Assembly: GCF_025905425.1 (NCBI RefSeq)
Contig: NZ_CP109603.1
Span: 1,276,001 to 1,340,000, forward strand
Length of the DNA stretch: 64,000 nucleotides
Direction: 5' to 3'
DNA from: Pseudomonas putida
GTDB lineage: Bacteria; Pseudomonadota; Gammaproteobacteria; Pseudomonadales; Pseudomonadaceae
The translations under genes and the position numbers were made by a program. Under the pieces are notes generated by a model. That model saw nothing but the letters and a program-made list of their open reading frames with translations. It was not told the DNA's origin and ran no database searches. This document shows positions 5,920 to 30,370 of this stretch, in pieces (position 1 is the first letter of the stretch; every line of letters begins with the position of its first letter).

Positions 5920-8127
5920 ATGAACTCTTTGCGACTTGCCGTGCAGATCGCTGCTGCCTGCCTGCTTCCCCTGGCCTGCAAAAGCGCACTTGCCGAACCT
6001 GCACCAACCATCAACCTTGAGCTTCCAGCGACCCAAGTGAGTGGTCAGCCGATCAATGAAGCTGACGACCGCCTGCACCTGGACACCCCGAATGCCGTGG
6101 GTAGCCGCCTGGGCCTGACCGCCCGTGAAACACCAGCATCCATCGAGACCAAGACCCAGGCCGATATGCAGTAGAAAGGGCTGCGTACCACCAAAGAGTC
6201 GTTCGCCGACGTGATAGGCGTGACCGTGGGTAACGTGCCAGGCAACCCGGCCGTCATCTCAATGCGCGGCTTCACCGGGAACACCGTGAACGTTATGCAA
6301 TACGGCGTGCGGGTGGCTGCCTCAACCGTCACCACACGCGACATGGACACTTGGAAGTACGAAAAGATTGAGGTACTGAAAGGCCCCGCGTCTGTCCTGT
6401 ATGGCGAGGGCTCTCTGGGCGGTGCGGTGAACCTGGTCACACGCAAGCCGACCCTGGACGAGCAGAAGCTCGAAGGATTGATCAGCACCGGGAGTTTCGG
6501 AACCAAGCGGGCTGCGATCGGCGTCAATCAGCCTCTCAACGACACCATGGCGCTGCGTGCTGATGTCAGTTACGTGAATTCGGACGGTTTCTACGACGTC
6601 GATGACCAGGAAACGACCACGCTCAACATCAGCGCAAGCTTGCTGTTCAAACCCAACGACGATCTGTCGATGATCTTCGCGTTTGATCATGACTATGACG
6701 AATACGACTCCACCTACAACGGCTCCCTACTGGTGCCGGCGTCTGTGGCTCGCAACCCTAGTGGCATCGTGAGCAGCAAGAATGGCCTGGTGATCGACAA
6801 GTCGCTGCGACGCAGCAACTACAACCCTGACGGTGCCAACTCCGGTGCGCGCAGCACGTCATGGCGCTGGACCACCGACTACCGCCTGAGCGAAGACTGG
6901 ACCCTCAACAACATCATCAGCTACTACACCGCTCACAGGGAGTTCTTCGTTTCTTCCGAGCAGAACTACAACGCCGGCACCGGGATGTTCAACCGAACCG
7001 TGCAGCGGGTCAGCTACGACCACCAGTTCTGGAACGAACGCCTCTCGGCCAGCACTGATCAGCTTATTGGCGGATTCCGGAACCGGTTCAGTGTGGGAGC
7101 AGAGTATAGCTACACCGATCTGAACAATCCATGGCAGAACGGGACCACCACATCAGTAGACCCGTGGAATCCCGACGTGGGCAGCTTCCCCTCAAGCGCC
7201 GCGCAAAACTGGCCGGGCGCAGGGCGCAACGTGCTGTATCAGTCGAATATGGACAACACCGCCGTCTTTGCCGAGGACGCCTTCAACCTCACGGACGACT
7301 GGCTGCTGATTGGCGGAATGCGTTATGAGGACATCAATCTGCGCCGCACGGTGGAAGACGTAACTCTGGGCACAGCACAGAAATTTCGCCCCACGTATGA
7401 CCCGTTCTCTTGGCGCCTAGGCACCGTCTACAACCTGACCCCTGACATCCAACTCCATGCGCAGTACAGCACCGCCGTAACGCCGGTCTCGTCGCTTTTG
7501 CTCATTTCCTCGGCCAACGGCGACTTCGACCTCTCCAAGGGCCGGTCCGTGGAAGTGGACTTCAAGGCGTCGATGTTTGACGGACGGACAAGCTTGACTG
7601 GTGCGCTGTACCAGATCGACCTCGAAGATATTCTGACGCGCAATCCCAACGACAGCACCTGGACCGTGCAGGGCGGCAAACAGCGCTCGCGCGCCGTTGA
7701 GCTGACGAGCTCGGCACAGCTCACCTCGCAACTGCGGGCCGACCTCGGGGGTTCGGTTGTCGATGCGCATTACGAAGAGCTTGTCGAGGCAGGCGGTGCT
7801 GACCGCTCCGGCAACCATCCGGTCAACGTCCCACGAACAACCGCCAATGCAGCACTGATCTATCGTTTCGAATCCGTTCCAATCACAGTCGGCGCATACG
7901 TCAGGCACTCAGGCGGCTTCTACACCGACACCGCCAACACCTATTTCGTTGAGGGCTACACGACGCTCGACGCGTCGATTGCCTATGAAATGAAGAATGC
8001 GACCCTGACGCTTCGCGGGCGCAACCTCACCGATAGGTTCTATGGCGAGTACTCAGGCTATTCAGCGACCCAGATCTACCTCGGTGCTCCACGAAGCGTT
8101 GAGCTGAGCCTCGCTTTCAAGTTCTAG
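5920..8127 (+). pseudogene. TonB-dependent siderophore receptor with in-frame TAG
   Basis: From MNSLRLAVQ (5920) there is a signal peptide ending SALAEP, then the start of the plug. A TAG at 6172-6174 interrupts it, and the same frame then stays open for 638 further codons (counted from 6211), including YGVRVAASTVTTRDMD, a GPASVLYGEGSLGGAVN plug motif, a complete barrel and the C-terminal ELSLAFKF. The rest is undamaged, so the stop is the only lesion I see; a G-to-T change of GAG would create it. Family function is ferric-siderophore uptake. Expression would need stop readthrough or a start downstream without a signal peptide. Confidence 0.85.
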
Positions 8128-18923: not shown

Positions 18924-19137
18924 GACCTACCTCTCAGGTTTTTATTGGAGACCTGAGTCTATGGAAGCGACGGTAGCTGTGAGGTGCGACGTTCTGACGC
19001 AGGGCTGGCGTAGTGGCCTCAGATGCAGATTGGGTGCCGAGGGTGCGGCGTGCTGTCGCAGCGCCGCGTTGCCAGAGTGCTATGCTAAGTTGCAGTCGAT
19101 CCGGTGTTGTACTCTTGGCAGGGTTTTCATTGAATCA

Positions 19138-19175
19138 AACAAAAGTCGGGGAGGCGGATCGCCCCGGCTTTTGTT
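19138..19175. terminator. Hairpin, copy of the 1177-1210 terminator
   Basis: CAAAAGTCGGGG pairs with CCCCGGCTTTTG, with T-runs. It is part of the segment duplicated with the cytochrome gene. Confidence 0.55.
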
Positions 19176-19232
19176 TTTTCATAGCGCCAACGGGCATCCA
19201 TACTCCGAGGACTCAGGAACGCTCGATACCGC

Positions 19233-19469
19233 ATGCAGTCGGTTGTTCCTTTGCGCTCGATGAAGCGCAAACCCAAGCCTGGGCTACCCCGCCTGTTCGA
19301 TCGCCCAAAGTACCGTCAACGCAATGTGATCGAGCGCATGTTTGGCTGGCTGAAAGAGAATCGAAGGATCGTGACTCGCTTCGACAAGCTGACGAAAAGT
19401 TATGCAGCGATGGTCTCGCTGGCCTGCGCGATGCGGTGTTTGAGACACCTCTTTTCAGACAGAGCCTAG
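19233..19469 (+). pseudogene. C-terminal fragment of an IS5-family transposase
   Basis: It reads LPRLFDRPKYRQRNVIERMF, GWLKENRRIVTRFDKL, the catalytic-Glu region of IS5/IS427-type DDE transposases (ERMFGWLKENRR). The N-terminal two thirds, with the first two catalytic Asp residues, are missing. It joins the duplicated cytochrome segment on the left and the EamA ghost on the right, so a deletion or recombination through this IS may have created that junction. Confidence 0.8.
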
Positions 19470-19477
19470 TATAGCGC

Positions 19478-19577
19478 GGTGCGCCAACTGACAGCGTTTC
19501 AAGTGGCTACGGTTCAATTAAGTGTGCCTGTCCTAGGCGGCGTGGCGTTGGTCTTGGGCAGCAGAGAGCAACACTAG
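19478..19577 (+). pseudogene. Ghost of an EamA transporter C-terminus
   Basis: The frame reads LTAFQVATVQLSVPVLGGVALVLGS then a stop. It matches the last part of the EamA gene at 51561-52454 (AAFQAATVQLSVPIL and LGGVALVLGG), with the helix between the two motifs deleted. This is a relic of a second copy of that locus. Confidence 0.65.
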
Positions 19578-20088
19578 CTGCAACAGGGGAAGATTCGATT
19601 AAATCAACAAGAACAATTGATTCGATCCGTCCGGTCATTTCGTTATGGCGGGCATTCCTACCTTGGCCAACGGCATCCCCGGCGCAGCAGGTGTTGCGCC
19701 GCTGATGGTGGTCAAGCTTGCGGAATTTTTAGTCTCGGCAGAATGGTGGCGCAAAAGAAATCTGCAATGGAGTCGGGCATTACGGCCAACGAGTCGGATG
19801 TACAAAAGGTCTCCTCCTGGACGCCTGCGCTGAGGATTAATGACCAGAGCTTTTTATACTGACGGTGCAAGTTTAGCGGTTCGGCTGGCGTGCGCCGATG
19901 GCGGAATATATTTCACGGAACCACACAGTCACCTCGGCCAGATTTTCCCCGAGCGTGTGCATGACTATGGCGGAGAACTGCCGAAATTGTCCTCTGCAGG
20001 CAGATCGCGTTCTCACAACGGGGCACATTCAGCAATCACGATACGCAGATAGCGGCTGGTCATTTCGAATAGCAACTCTTCCTTTTGC

Positions 20089-20092
20089 CTAA
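20089..20092. repeat. Left target-site duplication CTAA
   Basis: CTAA directly precedes the left inverted repeat and is repeated at 21261-21264. This matches the YTAR target preference of IS5-group elements. Confidence 0.8.
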
Positions 20093-21260
20093 GGATTCTC
20101 CGATCAAGTCCCCAAATGTGCTGAAATACGCCTGACCACCTGATCCGAGCCACCCATGAGCCAGATGAGCTTTTCCGACTTCGAATATGCCGGCAAGCGC
20201 AAGCAGACACGCCGCGAACGCTTCCTCGCCGAGATGGATCAGGTCGTGCCCTGGACTGGGCTGCTGGGGCTGATCGAGCCGTTCTATCCCAAGGCCGGCG
20301 GCGGTAGAAAACCCTACCCGCTGGAAACCATGCTGCGCATCCATCTGTTGCAGAACTGGTTCTCCCTGAGCGATCCGGCCATGGAAGAAGCGCTCTACGA
20401 AATCACGCCTATGCGCCAGTTCGCACGCCTGACGCTGAGCGCGCGGATCCCCGAAGACACCACGATCATGAATTTCCGGCACTTGCTGGAGAAGCATCAA
20501 CTCGCACCTGCGATCCTTGCGGTCATCAACGGTTACTTGCAGGAGAAAGGCCTGTCGTTGCGCCAGGGCACCATCGTTGATGCCACCATTATTCATGCCC
20601 CAAGTTCGACCAAGAACGAAGAAGGCAAGCGCGATCCCGAGATGCATCAGACCAAGAAAGGCAATCAGTATTTTTTCGGGATGAAGGCTCATATCGGCGT
20701 CGATGCTGAATCCGGCCTGGTTCATCACGTCCATGGCACCGCAGCCAATGTGGCCGATGTCACACAGGTCGCCGAGCTGTTGCATGGCGAAGAAAACGCG
20801 GTGTATGCAGACGCCGGGTACAGCGGTGTCGAGAAGCGCGAAGAGCATGAAAATCGTGAGGTGATCTGGCAAGTCGCCGCGCGCCGCAGCACGTATTCCA
20901 AGCTGAACAAACGCAGCCTGCTTTACAAAGCCAAGCGCCAAATTGAGTACTGCAAAGCTCAGACACGGGCCAAGGTTGAGCAACCGTTTCGGGTGATCAA
21001 ACGGCAATTTGGTTACGTGAAAGTGCGCTTTCGAGGGCTGATGAAGAACACGGCTCAGTTGACCACGCTGTTCGCTCTGTCGAACCTATGGATGGCTCGA
21101 AAGCAGCTGATGGGTATGGGCAAGTTACGCGCGTAACACGGAAGACCGGGCGACAAAGCCCTCAAAACGCTGTGCATGGGACTTTCTTTCGGCAAGCAGC
21201 GGTACGCGCCGGAGAATGTTTGGCCTGCCGCCGCTTTTCGGCAAGTTGATCGGAGCATCC
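20093..21260 (+). mobile_element. IS5-family insertion sequence, 1168 bp, apparently complete
   Basis: The left end GGATTCTCCGATCAAGT and the complement of the right end GGATGCTCCGATCAACT are imperfect inverted repeats (15 of 17 match). Between them is one full-length transposase. CTAA flanks both ends. The element interrupts the ghost tetR gene. Its good condition compared with its surroundings suggests it arrived later than the first decay of the target. Confidence 0.9.
20156..21136 (+). CDS. IS5-family transposase
   Basis: A 326-residue DDE transposase of the IS5 group. The N-terminal domain (DUF772-like) reads RKPYPLETMLRIHLLQNWFSLSDP; the catalytic part has the first Asp in GTIVDATIIHAP, the second in VYADAGYSGVEKR, and the Glu in the KVEQPFRVIKRQFGYVKVRF region. 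It ends QLMGMGKLRA. The length is normal for the group and the frame is intact, so it is probably active or was recently. Confidence 0.93.
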   Translation: MSQMSFSDFEYAGKRKQTRRERFLAEMDQVVPWTGLLGLIEPFYPKAGGGRKPYPLETMLRIHLLQNWFSLSDPAMEEALYEITPMRQFARLTLSARIPEDTTIMNFRHLLEKHQLAPAILAVINGYLQEKGLSLRQGTIVDATIIHAPSSTKNEEGKRDPEMHQTKKGNQYFFGMKAHIGVDAESGLVHHVHGTAANVADVTQVAELLHGEENAVYADAGYSGVEKREEHENREVIWQVAARRSTYSKLNKRSLLYKAKRQIEYCKAQTRAKVEQPFRVIKRQFGYVKVRFRGLMKNTAQLTTLFALSNLWMARKQLMGMGKLRA

Positions 21261-21264
21261 CTAA
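21261..21264. repeat. Right target-site duplication CTAA
   Basis: Second copy of the four-base target duplication; see 20089. Confidence 0.8.
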
Positions 21265-21410
21265 ATGATATAGAGCGCCTCGATCCAGGACTGTAGCCTT
21301 CTCCTGCTCAGCAAGACCGGTTGTGTGAAGTCCCGCGTCGAAAAAGCGCTACAGCGATTTTCAGTATCCGTACCTTGGTACCATTTTCAGTGGCTTCGAT
21401 GGCGGTGGCG

Positions 21411-22422
21411 GTATTTTTCTTCGCCTTGAATGAGCCCCAGCGTGTTAGTTCTAGTCATACCCATACGGCTGAAGCGAAAGATAACGATCATCGCCCGGCA
21501 GCGCAGTCGTTACCAACCGCACTCAATTCTTGCGGATAGCACTCGCCAGATAGCATTGGGTCGGCTGGTGTTCCGATAGCCAGTTTGCTAGGGCTATGAT
21601 ATGCGTTGGCGACGCAACTCGGTGATGATCGTGGTTGTGTGCTCCAGCTTGATCTCGCTGACCGGCTGTTTGCGCGTAGCAGGCAAGATGAGGTTTCTCA
21701 GCCCCCTCCTCGAAACCCTGAGATTCGATACGTAATATTTGTCCCAGCATTTCCATGCGGATCAGCCTGTGTTTCCTGCTCGAAAAGTAAGTCGAAGCAG
21801 TTTAAACCCTCGGTCAGGTTTCGGTCAGCGGCAACATCCGGGGTTGCTCTGGGGTGATCATCCGTTGGAACGCAGAGAAGGCATTCCTCAGTGTTGATGT
21901 GATTTCCCTCAGAGTACCTCACCCGGCGGGAGCCTTCAGTCCGCGTGGTGCTGAATCTGAAGGAGGGGGGGCTGGATTCTTTGTTGCCCATATTATCTGT
22001 CCGGGGTCTGGTGGGTATGGTGGTTGATAAACTAGCTGGCTGATCCCTCTGATCCCTCTGATAGGCCTGGAGCAGCTCTCGTTCCAGATAACTCTAAAGT
22101 TCTTTGTAGAGTGTGGCGCAGATCTGTAAGCTTCCAAAGTTCAACGATAAGAAATCCCTTGAAGGTAAAAGTTTCTTCCAGTGATTGCACTGCGCTGGCT
22201 GTTTCCAAGGATGCAAATTTTCGATTGGTTTCCGCTAAGCGATGATGAGTGGTGAATGGCCGCACATTGGCGCAATACGTCACAGTGAATAGGGTCGCTA
22301 ATAAAGCTCCAAGAGTTCTCGTAGTCAAAATTGCTTAAATATTTCTTATGTGAACTGTGGGCGCAGGGTAGCCCTGAGAATAACGAGCTAGGCCTGGAGC
22401 GCATCGAGGGCTAAATTATGAG
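21411..22422. other. AT-richer decayed region without a recognisable gene
   Basis: I see no family. Two things stand out. A 44-codon frame at 21601-21735 on the plus strand begins MRWRRNSVMIVVV and has a lipoprotein-like lipobox (LISLTGC), probably a cut-off gene start. A minus-strand frame at 22032-22328 begins with a signal-like segment (MTTRTLGALLATLFTVTYCA) and has plausible composition but no known relatives that I can name. Confidence 0.35.
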
Positions 22423-23118
22423 TTAACCTTCGCATCCACTCAGGTCACAAGTCATACCTTGGTATGATAGACTGCTGGTGGCTGAAGAGTACATTTGCTC
22501 AAGACTCTGAGTAAATACCTCTACTGATTGCGCGCCCGATATAGTGCAGGTTTTGGCAAGTTGGAAAAGCGGGACCCCGCTTCCGAAGCTCTTGGCCGTA
22601 GACTCATCCTTAGTAATCAATCGAATTAATTCGCTATTGGTCCAGGCGTTTTTGACAAATTCTTTCGGGATGTCTAGTTTTGCCGCCTCCACCGCAATTG
22701 AATCGAGATCGTAGAGTGAGACTCCTCGCGTAATACTAGCTTCATAGAGATTTTCGATCAGTGCCTGGCTAACGTCAAGCCTGTCGGCAGCTTTAACTAA
22801 AGCATGAACAGCGGTCGTGTCACCAAATAATAGTGTGTCAAAATTATAGACTAGGCCTGTCGCCTCTGCGTGAGTTTGAATGCTGTTTACAAAATCGTCC
22901 ACTGAGCGATGGTTACCAAATTTTTTAAGCAGAACGGCTTTGATTGGCATTGGTCTTTGGCCTATCGCTAGGCGGTAAGCTCTATGATTAACCTTGATTT
23001 GGTCGCGATGCTTAAAGTTTGCGAGTGCCATTTCGAAGCGATGCTTTGCAATCCAGCACCACGGGCAGGCAAAATCAGACCAGACTTCAACGGTGAGGCT
23101 TTGGATCGAGGTGGTCAT
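22423..23118 (-). CDS. DsbA-family (FrnE-like) thiol oxidoreductase
   Basis: A 231-residue thioredoxin-fold protein of the cytoplasmic FrnE/2-hydroxychromene isomerase-like DsbA group. The active site is CPWC at residues 18-21; there is no signal peptide. The start MTTSIQ follows a GGA ribosome site. A 16-bp palindrome identical to that before the AhpD-like gene lies 40 bases upstream (23158-23173), and the tetR gene is divergent. A role in cytoplasmic thiol or disulfide stress is inferred from family and regulon. The C-terminus carries an extra Cys pair (CDLSGC). Confidence 0.85.
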   Translation of the reverse strand: MTTSIQSLTVEVWSDFACPWCWIAKHRFEMALANFKHRDQIKVNHRAYRLAIGQRPMPIKAVLLKKFGNHRSVDDFVNSIQTHAEATGLVYNFDTLLFGDTTAVHALVKAADRLDVSQALIENLYEASITRGVSLYDLDSIAVEAAKLDIPKEFVKNAWTNSELIRLITKDESTAKSFGSGVPLFQLAKTCTISGAQSVEVFTQSLEQMYSSATSSLSYQGMTCDLSGCEG

Positions 23119-23157
23119 GGTTAATTCCAAGTGGAAATGATAGGTTTAGTCTAATTT

Positions 23158-23173
23158 TACCATCTAGTAGGTA
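23158..23173. promoter_or_regulatory. Operator palindrome TACC-N8-GGTA (dsbA/tetR)
   Basis: TACCATCTAGTAGGTA. Its reverse complement is identical at all 16 positions to the site at 27363-27378. It lies between the divergent dsbA-like and tetR genes, 40 bases before the dsbA-like start. Confidence 0.8.
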
Positions 23174-23438
23174 GTCCTGCAATGTCTCTCAGTGCTGGTG
23201 GGGAACGTGCCTCACGTGAAGCCTGTTCGCGGGTGGGTAGGCACTTGCCTCAAGTCAATTTTCAGGTTTTTCGCCTTGCTGTCTCCTGTGTTGTCAGCAT
23301 CTCGGGTCATGTGCAAGGCCAGTTTACGTGGCTTCACTGCGAGCTATATTTAAGGGGGCCGTCCTAGGATAGGCGGTACCTTGATGGTGCGTGTAAAACG
23401 AGGTATTCTGTAAGCTTATTTTGTTAAGCGAGTTTGGA

Positions 23439-24005
23439 ATGAGTACCCGTACTGACCTTCTTGCATCTGCAGAGTCTTTGTTGCGCACAAAAGGGTATGC
23501 AGCGTTCAGTTATGCTGACCTTGCACACATCATCGGTATTAGTAAAGCAAGCATCCATCACCACTTCCCAACAAAGGAAAAATTAGGTGTGGCGATTGTG
23601 GAGAACTATATCTTCAGATTCTGTAAGCGTCTTGAGCAAATCGATCAGGAGTCTGAAAGCGCGGTGCAGCGTCTAATTGCGTTCTCCGCCTTATTTCGTG
23701 AAAGTCGTGATGCGAGCCTTCTGCCGCTTTGTGGCGCTCTGGCAGCGGAAATCGCTGTACTACCGGATAGCCTGCGTAAGCTCACTAAAGGCTTTTTTGA
23801 GCTACATCTACGTTGGGTAGAGGATACGGTCAAGCTCGGGCAAGAGGAGGGCGAAATAAAGACTTCGCAAGGGCTCAAGCCACTTTCTCGAACGATTCTG
23901 AATTTCTTGGAGGGGGAGGCCTTTGTTTCTTGGGCTATCCAAGAAGACTCTAGTTCTGAGAATTCTTTTGAATGCTTCTTGAGTGGCTTTACAAAGCATT
24001 CGTGA
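23439..24005 (+). CDS. TetR/AcrR-family regulator of the thiol block
   Basis: A 188-residue TetR protein: an N-terminal HTH (ADLAHIIGISKASIHHHFPTK, about residues 28-48) and a C-terminal ligand domain with several Cys/Leu-rich helices (ASLLPLCGALAAEIAVLP). Family knowledge: it acts as a dimeric repressor on palindromes and is released by a ligand. It lies in the middle of genes preceded by the shared TACC-N8-GGTA palindrome, so it is the natural candidate to bind it. The cysteine in LPLCGAL could sense electrophiles as in NemR-like proteins (speculative). The start chosen is the ATG at 23439. Confidence 0.85.
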   Translation: MSTRTDLLASAESLLRTKGYAAFSYADLAHIIGISKASIHHHFPTKEKLGVAIVENYIFRFCKRLEQIDQESESAVQRLIAFSALFRESRDASLLPLCGALAAEIAVLPDSLRKLTKGFFELHLRWVEDTVKLGQEEGEIKTSQGLKPLSRTILNFLEGEAFVSWAIQEDSSSENSFECFLSGFTKHS

Positions 24006-24056
24006 TTTGGTCGTCGCCGACGTCGGGCTAGCGCGCCGGCGAGACTGACACGGAAG

Positions 24057-25232
24057 TTACTTCAAATTTTTACTGAATTCATTAAGCGCTTCCTCTAGAT
24101 CTCGAATAAGATCGTCAGCGTCTTCCAGGCCGACATGAAGTCGAATCAAATGCCCTGGCTCTTCCCATGGTTTTGCGGTTCTTATTGATTGTAGCGTTGC
24201 GGGGAGCACCAGGCTCTCAAAGCCTCCCCACGAGTATCCAATCGAGAACAACTTCAATGAATCAACAAGCTTGTCTACACACGCCTGTGGTGCCTCTCGT
24301 GTCACAAACGACAAGAGCCCAGAAGCACCTTTGAAATCTCGCTTCCAAAGGTTGTGCTGAGGATGGGATTCGAGAGCTGGGTAGAAAACCGATTTCACTT
24401 CGGATCGTTGCTCAAGCCATTTCCCTACAGTGATCGCATTTCTCTGGTGTCGCTCCAGGCGTACATGCAACGTGCGTAGCCCGCGGAGGGCAAGCGTAAC
24501 GTCGTCGGGGCTGGCGAAAATGCCCGTCAGTGCGTGGAAGGATTTGATCTTATCCCACGCGCGCGGCGAAGCAGAAATGGTACCCAGCATCGCATCAGAA
24601 TGACCTACGATATATTTGGTCGCGGCCATCACCGAAAGATCGATTCCATGCTCAATGGCGGGGAAGAAGAGAGGTGTACCCCACGTGTTATCGGTGATAG
24701 TGAATGCGCCGTGTGTCCGGGCGACTCTCACGATGGCAGGGATGTCCTGGACCTCCATGGTCAGGGAGCCGGGTGACTCGGTGTAGATGACCTTCGTGTT
24801 CGGTTTGACCAGGCTCTCGATGTCAGCACCAAGGGTGGGGTCGTAATAAGTCACTTCAAAATTGAAGCGGTTCTGCAGTGAATCGCACAGCGTGCGAACG
24901 GGTGAGTAGACGTTATCTGGGATCAAAATATGATCACCAGCTTCCATCAGAGCAAGGATCGCCGTTGAGCATGCGGCAAGGCCCGAAGGGCATAGCACCG
25001 TACCTTCTGCTCCTTCTAGCGCTTTGATTGCGCTTGTCAATGCATCGGTAGAGGGGTTCCCCCATCGACCGTACTGGTATTTTTGCCGTCCCTCACGAAA
25101 TGCCTCGGCGCTAGGGAATACGACAGTCGACCCGCGATAAATCGGTGTATTCACGAACCCGTGATGCTGGTCGGGCTGTATTCCACCATGGGTCAAAAGC
25201 GTTTGCACATCATACTCTTGTTTTGCACTCAT
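24057..25232 (-). CDS. metC: Cystathionine beta-lyase-type PLP enzyme
   Basis: A 391-residue Cys/Met-metabolism PLP enzyme. The Schiff-base Lys is K206 in SVMAATKYIVGHSD; TESPGSLTMEVQDIPAI (151-167) is typical of MetC-type cystathionine beta-lyases, and YGRWGNPST (54-62) is the cofactor-phosphate region. Such enzymes cleave C-S bonds of cystathionine, and often of cystine or S-substituted cysteines, releasing pyruvate and ammonia. The start MSAKQ at 25232 is preferred over 25256; both are open. It shares the operator-containing intergenic region with the permease gene, suggesting uptake and cleavage of a sulfur amino acid (inference). Confidence 0.85.
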   Translation of the reverse strand: MSAKQEYDVQTLLTHGGIQPDQHHGFVNTPIYRGSTVVFPSAEAFREGRQKYQYGRWGNPSTDALTSAIKALEGAEGTVLCPSGLAACSTAILALMEAGDHILIPDNVYSPVRTLCDSLQNRFNFEVTYYDPTLGADIESLVKPNTKVIYTESPGSLTMEVQDIPAIVRVARTHGAFTITDNTWGTPLFFPAIEHGIDLSVMAATKYIVGHSDAMLGTISASPRAWDKIKSFHALTGIFASPDDVTLALRGLRTLHVRLERHQRNAITVGKWLEQRSEVKSVFYPALESHPQHNLWKRDFKGASGLLSFVTREAPQACVDKLVDSLKLFSIGYSWGGFESLVLPATLQSIRTAKPWEEPGHLIRLHVGLEDADDLIRDLEEALNEFSKNLK

Positions 25233-25314
25233 AACCGTTTCCATGACAAAGGCCATTATTTAAGGCGTCGGGTGCTGTGCATCCTAAACCCTTAGGCATC
25301 ATATACGCAAACCG

Positions 25315-25328
25315 CTACCTAGTGGTAG
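25315..25328. promoter_or_regulatory. Shortened palindrome CTACC-TAGT-GGTAG
   Basis: This has the same half-sites (TACC/GGTA) as the regulon operator but a spacer of four bases instead of eight. It lies 83 bases before the metC-type gene. It could be a weak or altered site. Confidence 0.45.
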
Positions 25329-25390
25329 AGGATGTAAAAATCCTTATAAATCAGATACTTATACCAATATTATGATTTTTGTTGAATGTC

Positions 25391-25406
25391 TACCTACTAG
25401 GTGGTA
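25391..25406. promoter_or_regulatory. Operator palindrome TACC-N8-GGTA (metC/permease)
   Basis: TACCTACTAGGTGGTA differs from the other two full sites at a single position. It lies in the divergent intergenic region, 159 bases from each start codon. Confidence 0.75.
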
Positions 25407-25564
25407 GCGTTTTATCGTCTCTAACAAACCATTTGGCTTCGTCGCTTCCATGGAAAGCATTGGCATAAGCCAAGTCTGGTCGAGGAGCACCGCAGTAGCG
25501 TTGTTGATGAATCAGTGTTTCGTGGCGGAGCGGCACTGACACCCTATGAGTGATTAGGTGGACT

Positions 25565-27034
25565 ATGACAAACACAAAAATAAAAGTTAAGCCAGATTCC
25601 GACGTTGATAAAAAGTCGTGGCTTGAATCCCATGAGCATGGCTATGCAAAAAATCTAAAAAATCGCCATGTTCAGATGATCGCACTTGGAGGCGCTATCG
25701 GGACCGGCCTTTTTCTGGGAGCTGGCAGCAGGTTGCACACAGCCGGGCCAGGGTTAGCAGTGGCGTATTTAGTATGTGGTTTATTTGCATTCCTGATACT
25801 ACGCGCACTGGGAGAGCTGATCATGCATCGGCCAAGTTCCGGTAGTTTCGTATCCTATACTCGTGAGTTCATGGGCGAAAAAGTCGCCTACGTTGCCGGC
25901 TGGATGTATTTTCTTGTATGGGCAACGACGGGTGTAGTAGATATTACGGCCATTGCAATTTATATGAAATACTGGAATATGTTCAGTGACGTGCCTCAAT
26001 GGTTTTTTGCACTGAGTGCATTAGGGCTCGTCACGCTGCTTAATATGGTCGGAGTTAAGTGGTTCGGGGAAATGGAATTTTGGTTCGCAGTAATCAAGGT
26101 AGCTGCTATCGGTACCTTCCTGGCAGTAGGGACCTTCTTCTTCGCAACAGGCCATGAGATTGCAGGGCATCAGCCAGGGTTGGATCTAATTTTCAACAAT
26201 GGCGGTATCTTCCCTAATGGTGTGCTCCCAGCAATCATTATCATGCAGGGGGTGGTGTTCGCTTATGCCAGTATTGAGTTGGTAGGTACGGCGGCAGGCG
26301 AGACTGAAAATCCGAAAAAAGTTCTTCCCAAGGCTATCAATGGCGTAATTTGGCGGATTGGGCTTTTCTATGTTGGCTCTGTGGTCTTGTTGGTTACGGT
26401 TTTACCGTGGACGATGTACGAAGCCAATGTTAGTCCGTTCGTGACGTTCTTTGGCGCTCTTGGCGTACCAGGTATCGGTACGGTAATGAACATCGTGGTA
26501 TTGACGGCAGCATTGTCGAGTCTCAATTCAGGCTTGTACGCCACTGGCCGGGTGCTTCGCTCGCTTGCGATGGGTGGCTCTGCACCTAAGTCGTTGGCTG
26601 CCATGAATTCGCAGGGCGTTCCGTTCAAGGGCATTATCTTGACAGTGGCAATCAATGCTATTGGCGTACTTCTGAACTACCTGATCCCTTCTCAGATCTT
26701 TGAGTTGATGTTGAACGTAGCCGCCCTTGGGGTTCTGTCAACTTGGGGATTCATTGTTCTCTCGCAAATCTACTTCAGACGAGCTGTCAAGAGAGGAGAG
26801 GTAGAAGCGGTTGAGTTTAAGATGCCAGGCGCTCCATATACCTCTTGGTTGACCTTGGGCTTCTTACTTGTAGTGTTGGTCATGATCGGGTTCGATTATC
26901 CCAATGGGACGTATACGCTGCTGATGATTCCAGTTATTGCGATTGCGTTGATGTGGGGCTGGTCGCGTACAGCACATGTAAAAAATAAAAAGCCAGAAGG
27001 CCGGGTTGTCCCGGAAGTGACGGTTCTTAAGTGA
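25565..27034 (+). CDS. APC-family amino-acid permease
   Basis: A 489-residue inner-membrane permease with about twelve hydrophobic segments. It has the hallmarks of the amino-acid transporter family near helix 1 (QMIALGGAIGTGLFLGAGSRL) and helix 3 (PSSGSFVSYTREFMG). It is closest in pattern to asparagine/GABA/aromatic permeases of the AnsP/GabP type; the substrate is not deducible. The start MTNTKI is chosen. It is divergent from the metC-type gene, shares its operator region, and is followed by a good terminator, so it is a single-gene unit. Confidence 0.88.
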   Translation: MTNTKIKVKPDSDVDKKSWLESHEHGYAKNLKNRHVQMIALGGAIGTGLFLGAGSRLHTAGPGLAVAYLVCGLFAFLILRALGELIMHRPSSGSFVSYTREFMGEKVAYVAGWMYFLVWATTGVVDITAIAIYMKYWNMFSDVPQWFFALSALGLVTLLNMVGVKWFGEMEFWFAVIKVAAIGTFLAVGTFFFATGHEIAGHQPGLDLIFNNGGIFPNGVLPAIIIMQGVVFAYASIELVGTAAGETENPKKVLPKAINGVIWRIGLFYVGSVVLLVTVLPWTMYEANVSPFVTFFGALGVPGIGTVMNIVVLTAALSSLNSGLYATGRVLRSLAMGGSAPKSLAAMNSQGVPFKGIILTVAINAIGVLLNYLIPSQIFELMLNVAALGVLSTWGFIVLSQIYFRRAVKRGEVEAVEFKMPGAPYTSWLTLGFLLVVLVMIGFDYPNGTYTLLMIPVIAIALMWGWSRTAHVKNKKPEGRVVPEVTVLK

Positions 27035-27051
27035 TTTGCCCCGTCACACGA

Positions 27052-27073
27052 AGCCGCGCCTAGCGCGGCTTTT
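27052..27073 (+). terminator. Intrinsic terminator after the permease
   Basis: AGCCGCGC-CTA-GCGCGGCT followed by TTT: eight-base-pair stem and T-run. Confidence 0.85.
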
Positions 27074-27362
27074 CCGCAGATGCTTTTTCCTCAAGCCGGC
27101 TGCTTCATACGTGCTCTGGCTGGCGAGCTAGGGATTTAGCTAGGCAAGCTCACGGCTGTTGATCTATCGCCACCCTTGGCCTGAATCGCCCCGGGCTTCG
27201 TATGCGCTTACCGGAATATTCGAAAACGGAGAAGCTCATCGGGCTCATGGCAAAGCTTGCTGCGGTCGCTGAACGGAAGGCTATTTCAGCACAGGTCGGG
27301 TGGCCTGTGCTGACGTGATTGGAGAGCCACCTACGGGTGGCGAACGACAGCTCTTGTCAGCC
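27074..27362. other. Intergenic region without a gene
   Basis: No coding frame. It contains GGTGGCGAACGACAGCTCT (27336-27354), which resembles GGTGGCGAACGGCAGCTCT near 61816; this may be part of a dispersed intergenic element. Confidence 0.4.
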
Positions 27363-27378
27363 TACCTACTAGATGGTA
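27363..27378. promoter_or_regulatory. Operator palindrome TACC-N8-GGTA (ahpD-like gene)
   Basis: TACCTACTAGATGGTA, 70 bases before the AhpD-like start codon. It is the exact reverse complement of the site at 23158-23173. Confidence 0.8.
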
Positions 27379-27447
27379 ACATTATTTAAACCCGGCTCCT
27401 TGGGTGATAACTTACTTTCTGTGCCATAGCGAAACTGCGAGGATCAC

Positions 27448-27780
27448 ATGCAAGATTGGAAACAAGCCCGTCAAGATATCAACGCTCGACTCATGCAATT
27501 GGGCGCGCTTTCTCCGGACACCATCAAAGGTGTCATGGCTCTGGGTGGCGCAGGAGCCAAGACTAACCATCTGGATGCTAAGACTCGCGAGTTAATTTCC
27601 CTGGCAGTCGCCGTAACTACGCGCTGCGATGGCTGCATCGCATTCCACGTCGCCGAAGCCAAAAAGCTCGGCGTAACCGTTGAAGAGGTGTCTGAAGCCC
27701 TTGGTGTAGCGATCAACATGAACGCAGGTGCAGCACTCGTCTACAGTACCCACGTTCTGGATGCCTTCGATAAAGAGTAA
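27448..27780 (+). CDS. AhpD-like (carboxymuconolactone decarboxylase family) protein
   Basis: A 110-residue all-helical protein with the AhpD active-site pattern TRCDGCIAFH (C60, C63, H67) preceded by KTRELISLAVAV. Family members with this CxxC-H motif act as thiol-dependent peroxidases or disulfide reductants; the decarboxylase members lack the Cys pair. The start follows a GAGGAT ribosome site. It lies under the shared operator and before osmC on the same strand. A role against oxidised thiols or peroxides is inferred. Confidence 0.85.
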   Translation: MQDWKQARQDINARLMQLGALSPDTIKGVMALGGAGAKTNHLDAKTRELISLAVAVTTRCDGCIAFHVAEAKKLGVTVEEVSEALGVAINMNAGAALVYSTHVLDAFDKE

Positions 27781-28009
27781 ACAGGTAAGCCTATCTGTTA
27801 GATACCAATACATATTGAGACAGTCAGTTTGTTGCTCAAGTGTGAATGACTGCACAATTTGATAGGTAGGCGAAATACGCGAAGCACGCTACAAGCCTGT
27901 GCAAACTATGTGACGATCAAGAGCTTGTAATTGTACCAACTGGTTGATAGATTTATTGTAATTCATCTTAAGCCGTCCGGCGCTTAAGTGCACTTGAGAG
28001 GAAAAGCAG

Positions 28010-28564
28010 ATGAGTAACAACCTGAATGGCATTGATGTAGCAGCCCTGCAGCAGTTCGCACAAAGTGTCACCGAATCGCCAGCAGTAGGCGAAGCTCGTT
28101 TTAATGTGAAGACCAAGTGGGAGCACCAGACTCGCACTGTCGCTACCGTCAACTACTACTCTCTAGGTGGCGAAAATTACCAGCGTCACTTCGAAATCGC
28201 TGCCGATGAGCCTGAGCAACTGCTGGGCGCTAACAGTGCTCCGAACCCACAAGAACTTCTGATGGCTGCTCTGAACGCATGCCTGTCTGTCGGCTATGTG
28301 GCCAACGCTGCAGCCATGGGTATCAAGGTCAACAGCCTTGAAATCGAAGCGGACGGCAAGCTGGATCTCAGGGGCTTCCTCGGCTTGAACGAGAGCGTCA
28401 ACCCAGGTTACGACGAGGTAAGCTACATTGTTCGTATCGATACCGACGCCCCGAAAGAGCGCGTCGAAGAACTGCACAAAGTAGTAACTAAGACCTCGGT
28501 AAACTTGGCCAATTTCTCGAAAGCAATTCGGATGATTCCGACTTTGGAGGTACGTAATTCGTAA
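28010..28564 (+). CDS. OsmC-family protein lacking the second cysteine
   Basis: A 184-residue OsmC/Ohr-fold protein. It has one catalytic-type Cys (C91 in LLMAALNACLSVGY), but the region of the second Cys reads KTSVNLANFSKAI, so no cysteine remains there. Classical Ohr/OsmC peroxidases use both; this subgroup may do other chemistry or use an external thiol. The ribosome site GAGAGGAAA precedes ATG. It lies 229 bases after the AhpD-like gene with no terminator seen between, so co-transcription is possible. An extra N-terminal helix of about 30 residues is present. Confidence 0.85.
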   Translation: MSNNLNGIDVAALQQFAQSVTESPAVGEARFNVKTKWEHQTRTVATVNYYSLGGENYQRHFEIAADEPEQLLGANSAPNPQELLMAALNACLSVGYVANAAAMGIKVNSLEIEADGKLDLRGFLGLNESVNPGYDEVSYIVRIDTDAPKERVEELHKVVTKTSVNLANFSKAIRMIPTLEVRNS

Positions 28565-28592
28565 TTAGTTTGCACCTACGCATGATAGGATC

Positions 28593-28618
28593 GTTGCCGC
28601 CGTCAGGCGGCAACTGCT
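28593..28618 (+). terminator. Terminator hairpin after osmC
   Basis: GTTGCCGCC-GTCA-GGCGGCAAC, a nine-base-pair stem followed by TGCTTT. Confidence 0.7.
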
Positions 28619-29130
28619 TTGAGTGCGTGAGCATGCAGGCATCTCAATTCGGACAAGCACTCGTTTGGGGAGCTCTATGCCACTCAACACGAGAGCAAGC
28701 TTGATTGATTGGGCACTTGGTTCATCTGAGTATCTACTGAAAGGCTTCGACCTCGTCTTATTATCGATCATTTCAAATAGTGGACTAGCTCATCTATCCA
28801 CAGGCTCTGAATTAAGCGGAGTCTCCGTTTTGGTCCCTTAGCCGTAATGATGGTAAATTAGTCACTGAGGAGCTTGTTCAGAGGTCACATCAGTCAACAG
28901 GCTGATGAATCGCTCAGGATCCACTAAGTACCTTGCAAGCTCGTCGCGTAATGCTTTTCAAACGCTATTGGCTACAGCTAATTGTTGAAATATTACCGGC
29001 ATTTTGCGTTGTAGAATATTTTAATGTAGTGGAGCACGTCACCACGAGTATCTTCCCGCGTATTATAGGTGTTCCTCTTGATCTGCCTTCTACAACATCG
29101 AACTAGCGCTCCAACCAATTGGATAAGGCG
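28619..29130. other. AT-rich region without a recognised gene
   Basis: Short frames only, none with a family I know. This seems to be the right margin of the AT-richer thiol block, before IS and TonB remnants. Confidence 0.4.
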
Positions 29131-29329
29131 ACCGCCGGCTTACTGTCGTACTTTCCGAGGCGACTCCGATACCTGCCTGATAGCGCTGCACCCCCACCCC
29201 ATGACGCACCAGCCTCTCCACACAATGCCGACCACCATCTTCACCGACATCATGCGAGTCGGCATCGATTTTGCGATAGCCATAAACGCCGCCGCTCTCT
29301 TGGCACTCATGCTTAGTCGAATCCAGTAA
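29131..29329 (-). pseudogene. IS3-family orfB fragment
   Basis: The minus strand reads HECQESGGVYGYRKID and then HCVERLVRHGVGVQRYQAG, the SGGVYGYRK...R..RLM pattern of IS3-family OrfB integrase domains, with decay. It ends abruptly at 29330, where the TonB ghost begins. Confidence 0.6.
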
Positions 29330-30370
29330 TGTCTGGTCGTCGTCCTGATTGTGCCGCTGGCGGTAACCGCCGGAGCGGGCGATGGCGCTGTTATCCCTGT
29401 TGGAACGGTAAACCTCAAGGTTGCGGTAATCTAATCGCGCTAGCCGTCGTAATGGTAGAAGGTATTGCGCAACTGGGTGTTGTCGTCCAGCTGGTAGTGA
29501 TCGAGCCTATCCAGCGGGTACGCTACTTGTAGCGACTGTTGTTGACGTAGTAGTTGTTGAAGCGGTTGCGCTTGTCGATGTGCAACCTGCCGGCCCTTTT
29601 TTTCTAGCACCGGCGTGCCCTAGTAGGGACTGTCTTCTCTTCCAGGTATTCGATCGCCAGCGTATGGGAGAGTCGGTCGTTGATGTCGCTGAGCAGCGAG
29701 TAGGCCAAGTTGCCCGCACCGTTCTCCTGGCGATCGATGTAGCCGTTGCCGCTGGTACGGCTGTAGTCGAGGCGCGCATAGTGGCGTGGACCCGCTCCGC
29801 TGTTGAGGCTTTATTAAAGCCGACCGTGGTTTCCCAGATGTCGTAGCGACCTCAGCTCATCCGGCCCACGAAGGTATCTTCGTCGCGTTTGGGCAAGTTT
29901 GGTGATGACGTTCAGGCTGCCACCTAGGGCACCGCTGCCGTTGAGGAAGGAGGAGAGGCCGCCGAGCAATTCCACCCGATCATAACTCCAGGCACCGACC
30001 GGACGTGCTGCGCCGCCGTATTGCAATTGATGCCGTTGAACAGCTGGCTGATCTGGGCATCGTTGAAGCCACAGTACGACACATAGCTGCCCCAGCCGGA
30101 TGGCGCAGGAGCGTTAATCCCAGGCAGAGCGTTCACAGCGTCTTGAAATTTGCGTGCTCCGATACGTTCCATAGGCTTGCGATCAGCCAAGCTTACAGAG
30201 GCGGGATTTTCCCGGGCGCTGAGGTCCAGGTACAAGCCGCTTTCGATGGGGGTATCCAGGTCCAGGCTGGTGGCCGGTTTCGGCTGGTTGGTCGAGGCAT
30301 TGACGTAACGGGGGGTAAGCTCGCGAGCAACGCCAAAGTAGTCAAGCGAAACATGAAAAGCTTCCTAGCT
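29330..30370 (-). pseudogene. Ghost TonB receptor, copy of the 46-48 kb receptor
   Basis: DNA from 29330 to 30370 aligns with 47130-48185 on the same strand: GTGCCGCTGGCGGTAACC, GGTAGAAGGTATTGCGCAAC and GCTGAACAGCTGGCTGATC-like blocks recur in order. Many indels and stops break it (for example the plug region reads PGINAPAPSGWGSYVSYCGF). It covers the N-terminal half only and is cut at 29330 by the IS3 fragment. Gene conversion or template for recombination with the other copy is possible. Confidence 0.8.

Follow-up and report, generated by a model that had tools for sequence, protein, structure and literature searches.

A predicted 16-bp operator in promoter spacers of a probable AltR-type thiosulfinate-tolerance regulon of Pseudomonas putida

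Background

In onion and garlic tissue that has been damaged, survival of a bacterium is decided by its tolerance of thiosulfinates, and among the closest described regulatory systems is that of the alt genes of Pantoea ananatis PNA 97-1R. These genes are repressed by the TetR-family protein AltR, with allicin and methicin relieving the repression and C100 being essential for thiosulfinate sensing (PMC13178969). The published altR box has the form CAATCTAC[N6]GTAGATTG, and a second inverted repeat, IR2, the form TTACCAAC[N6]GTTGGTAA; that paper leaves direct binding of IR2 by AltR open. Here we analyse a block of comparable genes (dsbA, tetR, a metC-type gene, an amino-acid permease gene, ahpD and osmC) and the 16-bp palindrome, TACC-N8-GGTA, that recurs between them. 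The block lies in a stretch of 64,000 nucleotides of Pseudomonas putida DNA (assembly GCF_025905425.1, contig NZ_CP109603.1, positions 1276001-1340000), which we call the window.

The second point of reference is Pseudomonas fluorescens PfAR-1 with its allicin-resistance repeats, clones from which raised resistance to allicin and not to H2O2, cumene hydroperoxide or N-ethylmaleimide (NEM; PMC7119367, as accessible). The word "operator" occurs 0 times in the accessible text of that paper, which describes no operator, and the accessible text of PMC12306174 uses neither "operator" nor "palindrome". A literature search found no description of this operator in Pseudomonas, subscription papers and supplements lying outside its reach. 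The regulator class and the gene set are known already. The operator in Pseudomonas, the way it sits in the promoter, a block with four such operators and their presence in the metC/permease gaps are new. The AltR paper of April 2026 leaves the DNA target of AltR open, and a 16-bp site common across bacterial classes and set in the promoter spacer is a candidate answer.

Results and discussion

Four predicted operators in the spacers of promoter-like frames

The original prediction had linked the genes of the block through palindromes at 23158, 25391 and 27363. Both the coordinates and the letters are correct, and the site at 23158 (-) is identical to that at 27363 (+) at 16 of 16 positions, with the site at 25391 (+) one base off. 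The motif TACCTACTAGRTGGTA has exactly these 3 matches in the window, each with 0 mismatches; 100 shuffles in which up to 3 mismatches were allowed gave a mean of 0.15 matches, and 1 of the 100 also gave 3. Each site lies between the two elements of a promoter-like frame with a 17-nt spacer (Table 1). The site at 25391, earlier placed at the metC-type/permease pair, sits in a permease-directed frame, which corrects that description. When the window was scanned for TTG-N6-TACC-N8-GGTA with 1 mismatch, two places emerged beyond the three sites, against 0 in five mononucleotide shuffles. One of them, O4, is a fourth, weaker site that the original prediction lacked; it stands about 60 bp upstream of osmC, a distance that fits the osmC operators of other loci (53-61 nt). 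The other, at 26403 (-) within the permease gene, is considered a chance match. The short-spacer variant at 25315 likewise exists as described, and was rejected as a canonical promoter operator, inspection by eye having given no good -35/-10 pair.

We consider it highly likely that the block is a compact AltR-type thiosulfinate (allicin)-tolerance regulon under a TetR repressor acting at predicted 16-bp operators, the repeated site very probably being a switch of the known type of garlic- and onion-toxin defence. Both the likeness of the block to the alt and PfAR-1 tolerance loci and the idea that one operator unites its genes, with TetR as the likely binder, formed part of the original prediction, and both are backed by sequence comparison of the genes, the TetR and the operator. 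By analogy with the published Pantoea work, from which binding, derepression by thiosulfinates and the role of the cysteine are carried over, the window TetR, and probably also two paralogues described below, would bind a 16-bp operator with a consensus of about TACCWACTAGWTGGTA. As this operator fills the spacer of the predicted sigma70-type promoters of dsbA, the permease gene, ahpD and osmC, the bound protein would block transcription, until thiosulfinates modify the conserved C104 and the repressor releases the DNA. The thiol-repair genes would then be expressed together with the MetC-type C-S lyase and the amino-acid permease.

Table 1. Genes and predicted operators of the block, in window coordinates
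Feature	Position	Strand	Description
DsbA/FrnE-like oxidoreductase	22423..23130	-	PF01323; 235 aa as listed from TTG; an ATG at 23118
Predicted operator O1	23158..23173	-	TACCTACTAGATGGTA; in spacer of dsbA-directed promoter-like frame TTGCAG (23182-23177) - N17 - TAAAAT (23159-23154)
TetR-family regulator	23421..24005	+	AltR homologue by alignment; recognition region KASIHHHFPTKE; conserved C104
MetC-type pyridoxal phosphate (PLP) enzyme	24057..25256	-	PF01053; exceeds the cut-off of TIGR01324 (cystathionine beta-lyase); presumed beta C-S lyase
Short-spacer palindrome	25315..25328	.	CTACC-TAGT-GGTAG; upstream of metC; CTAC-N6-GTAG core same as in the Pantoea altR box; without clear promoter frame
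Predicted operator O2	25391..25406	+	TACCTACTAGGTGGTA; promoter-like frame TTGAAT (25382-25387) - N17 - TAGCGT (25405-25410)
Amino-acid permease	25550..27034	+	PF00324; 716.7 bits to L-asparagine permease, the nearest NCBIfam model (cut-off 773, not reached)
Predicted operator O3	27363..27378	+	TACCTACTAGATGGTA; ahpD-directed frame TTGTCA (27354-27359) - N17 - TAACAT (27377-27382)
AhpD-like protein	27448..27780	+	PF02627, TIGR00778; CxxC
Predicted operator O4	27934..27949	+	TACCAACTGGTTGATA; 1 mismatch in eight outer bases; osmC-directed frame TTGTAA (27925-27930) - N17 - TAGATT (27948-27953)
OsmC-family protein	28010..28564	+	PF02566

Near-exact sites are confined to two islands of the genome

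A genome-wide motif search had been suggested as a check of the original prediction, and the complete genome, a single contig of 6,138,339 bases, allowed it to be made. At 0-1 mismatch TACCTACTAGRTGGTA occurs at six places: the three window sites, 3491264 and 3492719 (both exact), and 3514272 (1 mismatch). All three sites outside the window fall in a second island at 3.49-3.51 Mb that carries PfAR-1-type allicin-resistance genes. The reversed control yields 0 matches in this class against the 6 of the motif, and the next-best genome matches have 2 mismatches. Sites of the near-exact motif are confined to these two islands; the looser pattern, weighed below, is as common as its control.

In the second island the sites at 3491264 and 3492719 stand before a gene for an alpha/beta hydrolase and before the run ahpD-dsbA-osmC-trx-EamA (both in L018), and that at 3514272 precedes ahpD-oye-kefF-kefC (L019). 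Further gene groups of the island are osmC-sdr-tetR-dsbA-trx and a tetR-permease/metC module, so that with osmC, sdr, tetR, dsbA, trx, kefC, kefF, oye and ahpD the PfAR-1 core, as given in the accessible part of PMC7119367, is complete. Of the core thiol-redox genes the block has only ahpD, dsbA and osmC, with trx, sdr, oye, kefF and kefC in the second island. The block is not alone in the genome: a single tetR is right for the block itself, the genome has three related tetR genes, and the full core stands in the second island beside the other two TetR paralogues. This island (L018/L019, 3490000-3524999) is larger than the block and, along with its two tetR genes, adds two metC-type genes to that of the block and encodes an EamA transporter as well as a pyridine-nucleotide-disulphide oxidoreductase-like protein; the operator of its alpha/beta hydrolase gene is in the TTG frame too.

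Of the dsbA copies in the second island, dsbA_2 is 50% and dsbA_3 39% identical to the window dsbA; the two ahpD copies there are 96% and 85% identical to the window ahpD. The 16-bp identity could reflect a recent duplication between the islands instead of selection on an operator, the more so as the ahpD of the block and ahpD_2, its 96% relative, have identical sites. We hold this very improbable: the sites precede the unrelated genes dsbA, permease, ahpD and osmC, and the palindrome persists, in a fixed TTG frame, in alpha-, beta- and gammaproteobacterial loci with TetR identities of 41-59%.

The palindrome recurs beside tetR and in a fixed promoter frame

Loci were fetched by TetR protein similarity alone; 119 relatives were confirmed, 80 of them kept, and 75 distinct loci obtained (31 non-Pseudomonas and 44 Pseudomonas), which are not independent, as near-identical relatives occur among them (L085-L087; L106, L112, L113). 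Every 4-base half-site was scanned at 15 spacings (0 to 14) within 150 bp either side of tetR. In the 31 non-Pseudomonas loci, from Achromobacter, Stenotrophomonas, Gluconobacter, Methyloligella, Hyphomicrobium and Caballeronia among others, TACC-N8-GGTA ranks first (24/31), and the best non-overlapping pattern reaches 4/31. The runner-up patterns CTAC-N6, CTAC-N10, TACC-N4 and CCTA-N8 are, judged from the sequences, overlapping registers of the same sites. This bears on whether some other regulator uses the sites while the adjacent TetR is incidental or controls part of the set. Such a regulator might be suspected from the lack of a site at the tetR promoter of the block, the three TetR paralogues of the genome, and the AltR-IR2 binding left open in Pantoea; the presence of the palindrome beside tetR in 24 of the 31 non-Pseudomonas loci chosen by TetR alone, together with the invariance of the TetR recognition region, makes it improbable.

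Target genes were located in the loci by tblastn, and distinct segments of 350 bp upstream of them were counted. TACC-N8-GGTA is found in these segments for ahpD (37/42), the permease gene (8/13), metC (8/13), osmC (10/46), dsbA (9/42) and tetR (20/94), and is rare or missing for sdr (2/53), oye (1/37), kefC (0/17), kefF (0/20) and trx (0/33). Eight control half-sites of the same letters gave 0-2 matches each over 410 segments, except CCTA (39), which we read as registers of the same site, and ACTC (9). The divergent metC/permease gap was compared in 15 loci, two of them from our own genome: each holds a site that departs from the eight outer bases by no more than 1 mismatch, exact in 9 of the 15, and the inner letters vary. 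Whole-locus counts put TACC-N8 in 102 distinct contexts, at the top among the permutations of TACC (next CATC, 56) and among the spacings of TACC (next N4, 27); as proof they were dropped, GC-rich half-sites being commoner (GCGC, 226).

The promoter score used initially had a built-in two-base bonus at offset 0, for which reason we counted the position of TTG instead. Of 118 distinct contexts, 77 have a TTG that starts 9 nt ahead of TACC (72 of 111 when our own genome is left out), and no other of the 34 offsets has more than 17. The geometry suggests that the operator fills the 17-bp spacer of a sigma70-type promoter, the -10 element starting with the last TA of GGTA. On the sense strand and with at most 1 mismatch, this frame was found in the other loci upstream of ahpD (32/42), osmC (29/46), the permease gene (11/13) and tetR (17/94), where shuffled segments lead one to expect at most 0.2 per gene.

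Palindromes resembling the operator also accompany TetR relatives in methylotrophs, namely L099 (Methylophaga thiooxydans, 1338), L092 and L107 (Methyloligella). These loci could conceivably serve methylated-sulfur metabolism and not defence against Allium compounds.

The regulator and its probable signal

The window TetR was aligned with the two paralogues from its own genome and with 97 distinct homologues (open reading frames of over 150 aa, among which there may be copies of our own paralogues); C104 is cysteine in 100 of 100 rows and HHHFPTKE of the recognition region is invariant. AltR of P. ananatis PNA 97-1R (L125) has cysteines at 100, 101 and 159, matching the paper, and its C100 aligns with the window C104. 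By this alignment the window TetR, 38% identical to AltR, is an AltR homologue that has a cysteine at the sensing position. Its identity is at most 55% to the TetRs of the second island and at most 59% to those of the fetched loci (41-59% across Alpha-, Beta- and Gammaproteobacteria). An AlphaFold2 model has a TetR fold at a mean predicted local distance difference test (pLDDT) score of 89.5, and the nearest solved structures are 3on4 and 2g7s.

The regulon might instead answer electrophiles, quinones or general thiol stress in the manner of NemR. Among the enzymes, AhpD, OsmC, FrnE-like DsbA and old yellow enzyme act on thiols or electrophiles in general; NemR itself (4yze) is among the relatives of the regulator, with template modelling (TM) scores of 0.79-0.80 and an E value of 3.8e-8 by sequence; and homologues occur in Hyphomicrobium, Methyloligella and Gluconobacter, which have no obvious link to Allium. 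We nevertheless think this unlikely, as the gene set and its synteny match PfAR-1, whose clones gained resistance to allicin and not to H2O2, cumene hydroperoxide or NEM (PMC7119367), and Pantoea AltR answers allicin and methicin and is unresponsive to NEM, diamide and H2O2 (PMC13178969).

Observations that weigh against the proposed regulon

A number of findings count against an AltR-type regulon delimited by this site. Within the genome, the bare TACC-N8-GGTA speaks against specificity, with 80 matches to 82 for the reversed control, and as a genome-wide marker it was rejected for want of enrichment; the full motif at up to 3 mismatches shows no excess either (9+14 = 23 strand matches against 16+13 = 29). 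The special class is that of 0-1 mismatches, and shorter or looser forms of the motif are not special. The overlap of the N4 and N8 registers means that the sequence fits either dimer footprint. When the palindromes beside tetR are ranked for the Pseudomonas loci, TACC-N8-GGTA comes no higher than ninth (8/44), because the operator there is mostly before ahpD and osmC. The window scan gave no site with at most 1 mismatch in the TTG frame before the tetR of the block, unlike Pantoea altR, and in the sites from Pantoea the TTG is not at the 9-nt distance. In the other loci, the sense-strand TTG frame was found before dsbA in 0 of 42 segments and in none for oye, kefC, trx and sdr, which may be inner genes of operons.

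The remaining points come from a survey of 398 genomes of the genus for TetR relatives at E <= 1e-30, found in 28, and for the motif at up to 1 mismatch, found in 16. The 28 motif hits in these 16 genomes are fewer than the 55 hits in 52 genomes of the reversed control, and motif frequency alone across the genus is thus uninformative. The motif at 1 mismatch is missing from 20 of the 28 TetR genomes; the commonest ahpD operator (TACCATCCAGTTGGTA) is two mismatches from the searched pattern. Motif and TetR coincide in 8 genomes (1.1 expected), compared with 6 of the 52 control genomes among the 28 (3.7 expected). In 6 of the 8, among them our own genome, the site is on the contig of the tetR gene and no more than about 24 kb from it; in the other 2 they are on different contigs, which again tells against the regulon. 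Clustering differs from that of the control, the motif occurring 6, 4, 4 and 2 times in genomes G000, G015, G226 and G246 and the control never more than 2 times per genome.

The two Pantoea repeats as possible forms of one site

In the sequence of PNA 97-1R the altR box is CAATC-TACCAACTAGTAGATT-G (8967) and IR2 is TTACC-AACCTACTAGTTGGTA-A (7306). Both repeats contain a variant of the 16-mer at the same offset, and the published N6 spacer reads CWACTA in both. Five Pseudomonas loci (L074, L078-L081) have osmC operators identical to the IR2 16-mer at 16/16 positions, and this 16-mer is one base from TACCTACTAGTTGGTA. Because both boxes share the 16-mer, and the IR2 core equals these osmC operators, AltR likely recognises the altR box and IR2 directly. 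IR2 occupies 7306-7327, about 100 bp before the PLP-enzyme gene (5995-7206, -). An alternative treatment of IR2 as a separate TACC-N12-GGTA operator class was set aside once the common 16-mer was recognised.

A possible import-and-cleave branch

The window MetC-type enzyme scores 475.6 bits against TIGR01324 (cut-off 365.9). Alignment with E. coli MetC finds the equivalents of Y56, R58, Y111, W340 and R372, residues with catalytic meaning, and the ATKY lysine kept, while two active-site residues are not, R59 being W65 and D116 being T122 in the window enzyme; metC_2 and metC_3 likewise have W after YGR. A study of E. coli MetC is said to have found that R59 and D116 matter for, and favour, cystathionine. 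The genome encodes three MetC-type enzymes (100, 64 and 60% identity to the window protein), all in the two islands, and its other four matches are at 29-35%.

The pairing of C-S lyase and permease had been put forward as a new combination; it is already in PfAR-1, P. salomonii and other clusters, where metC, permease and tetR adjoin the core, and a cys-beta-lys is drawn in Fig 5A of Borlinghaus 2020. PLP enzymes of the other clusters best match the PatB C-S lyase model, with 316 (Pantoea), 332 (Erwinia) and 374 bits (Burkholderia), of which only the last passes the cut-off of 340. As two different lyase families recur in the clusters, C-S bond cleavage appears to belong to the response. Our guess for the compounds on which the lyase and the permease act is S-alk(en)yl-cysteine (sulfoxides) or mixed cysteine disulfides, in keeping with the uptake and cleavage of an S-substituted cysteine inferred earlier.

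Putting these strands together, we tentatively raise the possibility that an operator family of about NACCWACTAGTWGRTW is ancestral to the AltR clusters of Alpha-, Beta- and Gammaproteobacteria, that one site has taken two forms in the altR box and IR2, and that the pseudomonad permease and MetC and the Pantoea PatB-like lyase, with IR2 directly before its gene, were wired under it as an import-and-cleave branch for cysteine S-conjugates. If so, this branch would make a plant toxin, or the precursor of one, a source of sulfur and carbon. With the candidate site, which covers the permease and C-S lyase genes as well, such regulons can be found in genomes in a simple manner and their limits drawn, and it can be tested directly if the bacteria stop at repairing thiol damage or use up the sulfur compound too.

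Composition and acquisition of the block

The AT-rich composition ascribed to the block is borne out, with 49.8% GC at 22400-28600 against 57.9% outside 19000-29600. A transposase gene with a DDE domain (PF01609) lies at 20156-21136, about 1.3 kb beyond the AT-rich block. The low GC and the transposase make acquisition of the block plausible. A tRNA-borne insertion was discarded, the window having no tRNA.

Comparison with known systems

NemR of E. coli (4yze), with which the AltR paper itself makes a comparison, shares with the window TetR the TetR fold and a critical cysteine; compared by fold and sequence only, the two differ in having 18% identity in the structural match and in the reported inducers. 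The Burkholderia cepacia plasmid cluster (L119) is like the block in its tetR, ahpD-type, dsbA and osmC genes and has sdr, alkene reductase and C-S lyase genes and a TACC-N8-GGTA site; it differs in that the lyase is of the PatB family (TIGR04350, above cut-off) and not MetC, and in having no amino-acid permease among its annotated genes.

Compact relatives also occur on other plasmids. In Klebsiella pneumoniae plasmid pKpN06-SIL (L126, 5302-10209) an alt-like cluster of OsmC, TetR, CMD protein, thioredoxin, alkene reductase, DsbA and SDR adjoins a Tn3-family transposase and a recombinase; 882 Klebsiella plasmid records match the Erwinia TetR at E <= 1e-5, of which the best matches only were inspected, so that the cluster is not implied in all. 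Pseudomonas aeruginosa plasmid pKLC102 (L120, 6111) encodes SDR, TetR, CMD and DsbA next to integrating-element genes, and its SDR gene is preceded by a TACCAACTAGTAGGTA site.

PfAR-1 (RE1-RE3; PMC7119367, as accessible) shares with the block homologous ahpD, dsbA, osmC and tetR genes and a low GC content, its whole core recurring in our second island, and the PfAR-1 loci L049, L056 and L059 each have TACC-N8-GGTA sites. Unlike PfAR-1, the block consists of diverged paralogues in a gene order absent from the 75 fetched loci. The alt system of P. ananatis PNA 97-1R, to judge from the accessible part of PMC13178969, has in common with the block a TetR repressor with the same cysteine position and inverted-repeat operators with a 16-mer core; its cluster holds OsmC, a CMD/AhpD-type protein, alkene reductase, DsbA, SDR, thioredoxin, glutathione reductase and a PLP enzyme. 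The block differs from it in being chromosomal, in lacking oye, sdr, trx, gor and an operator before its own tetR, in having MetC and an amino-acid permease in place of a PatB-like enzyme and a DMT transporter, and in the placement of its operator within the -35/-10 spacer.

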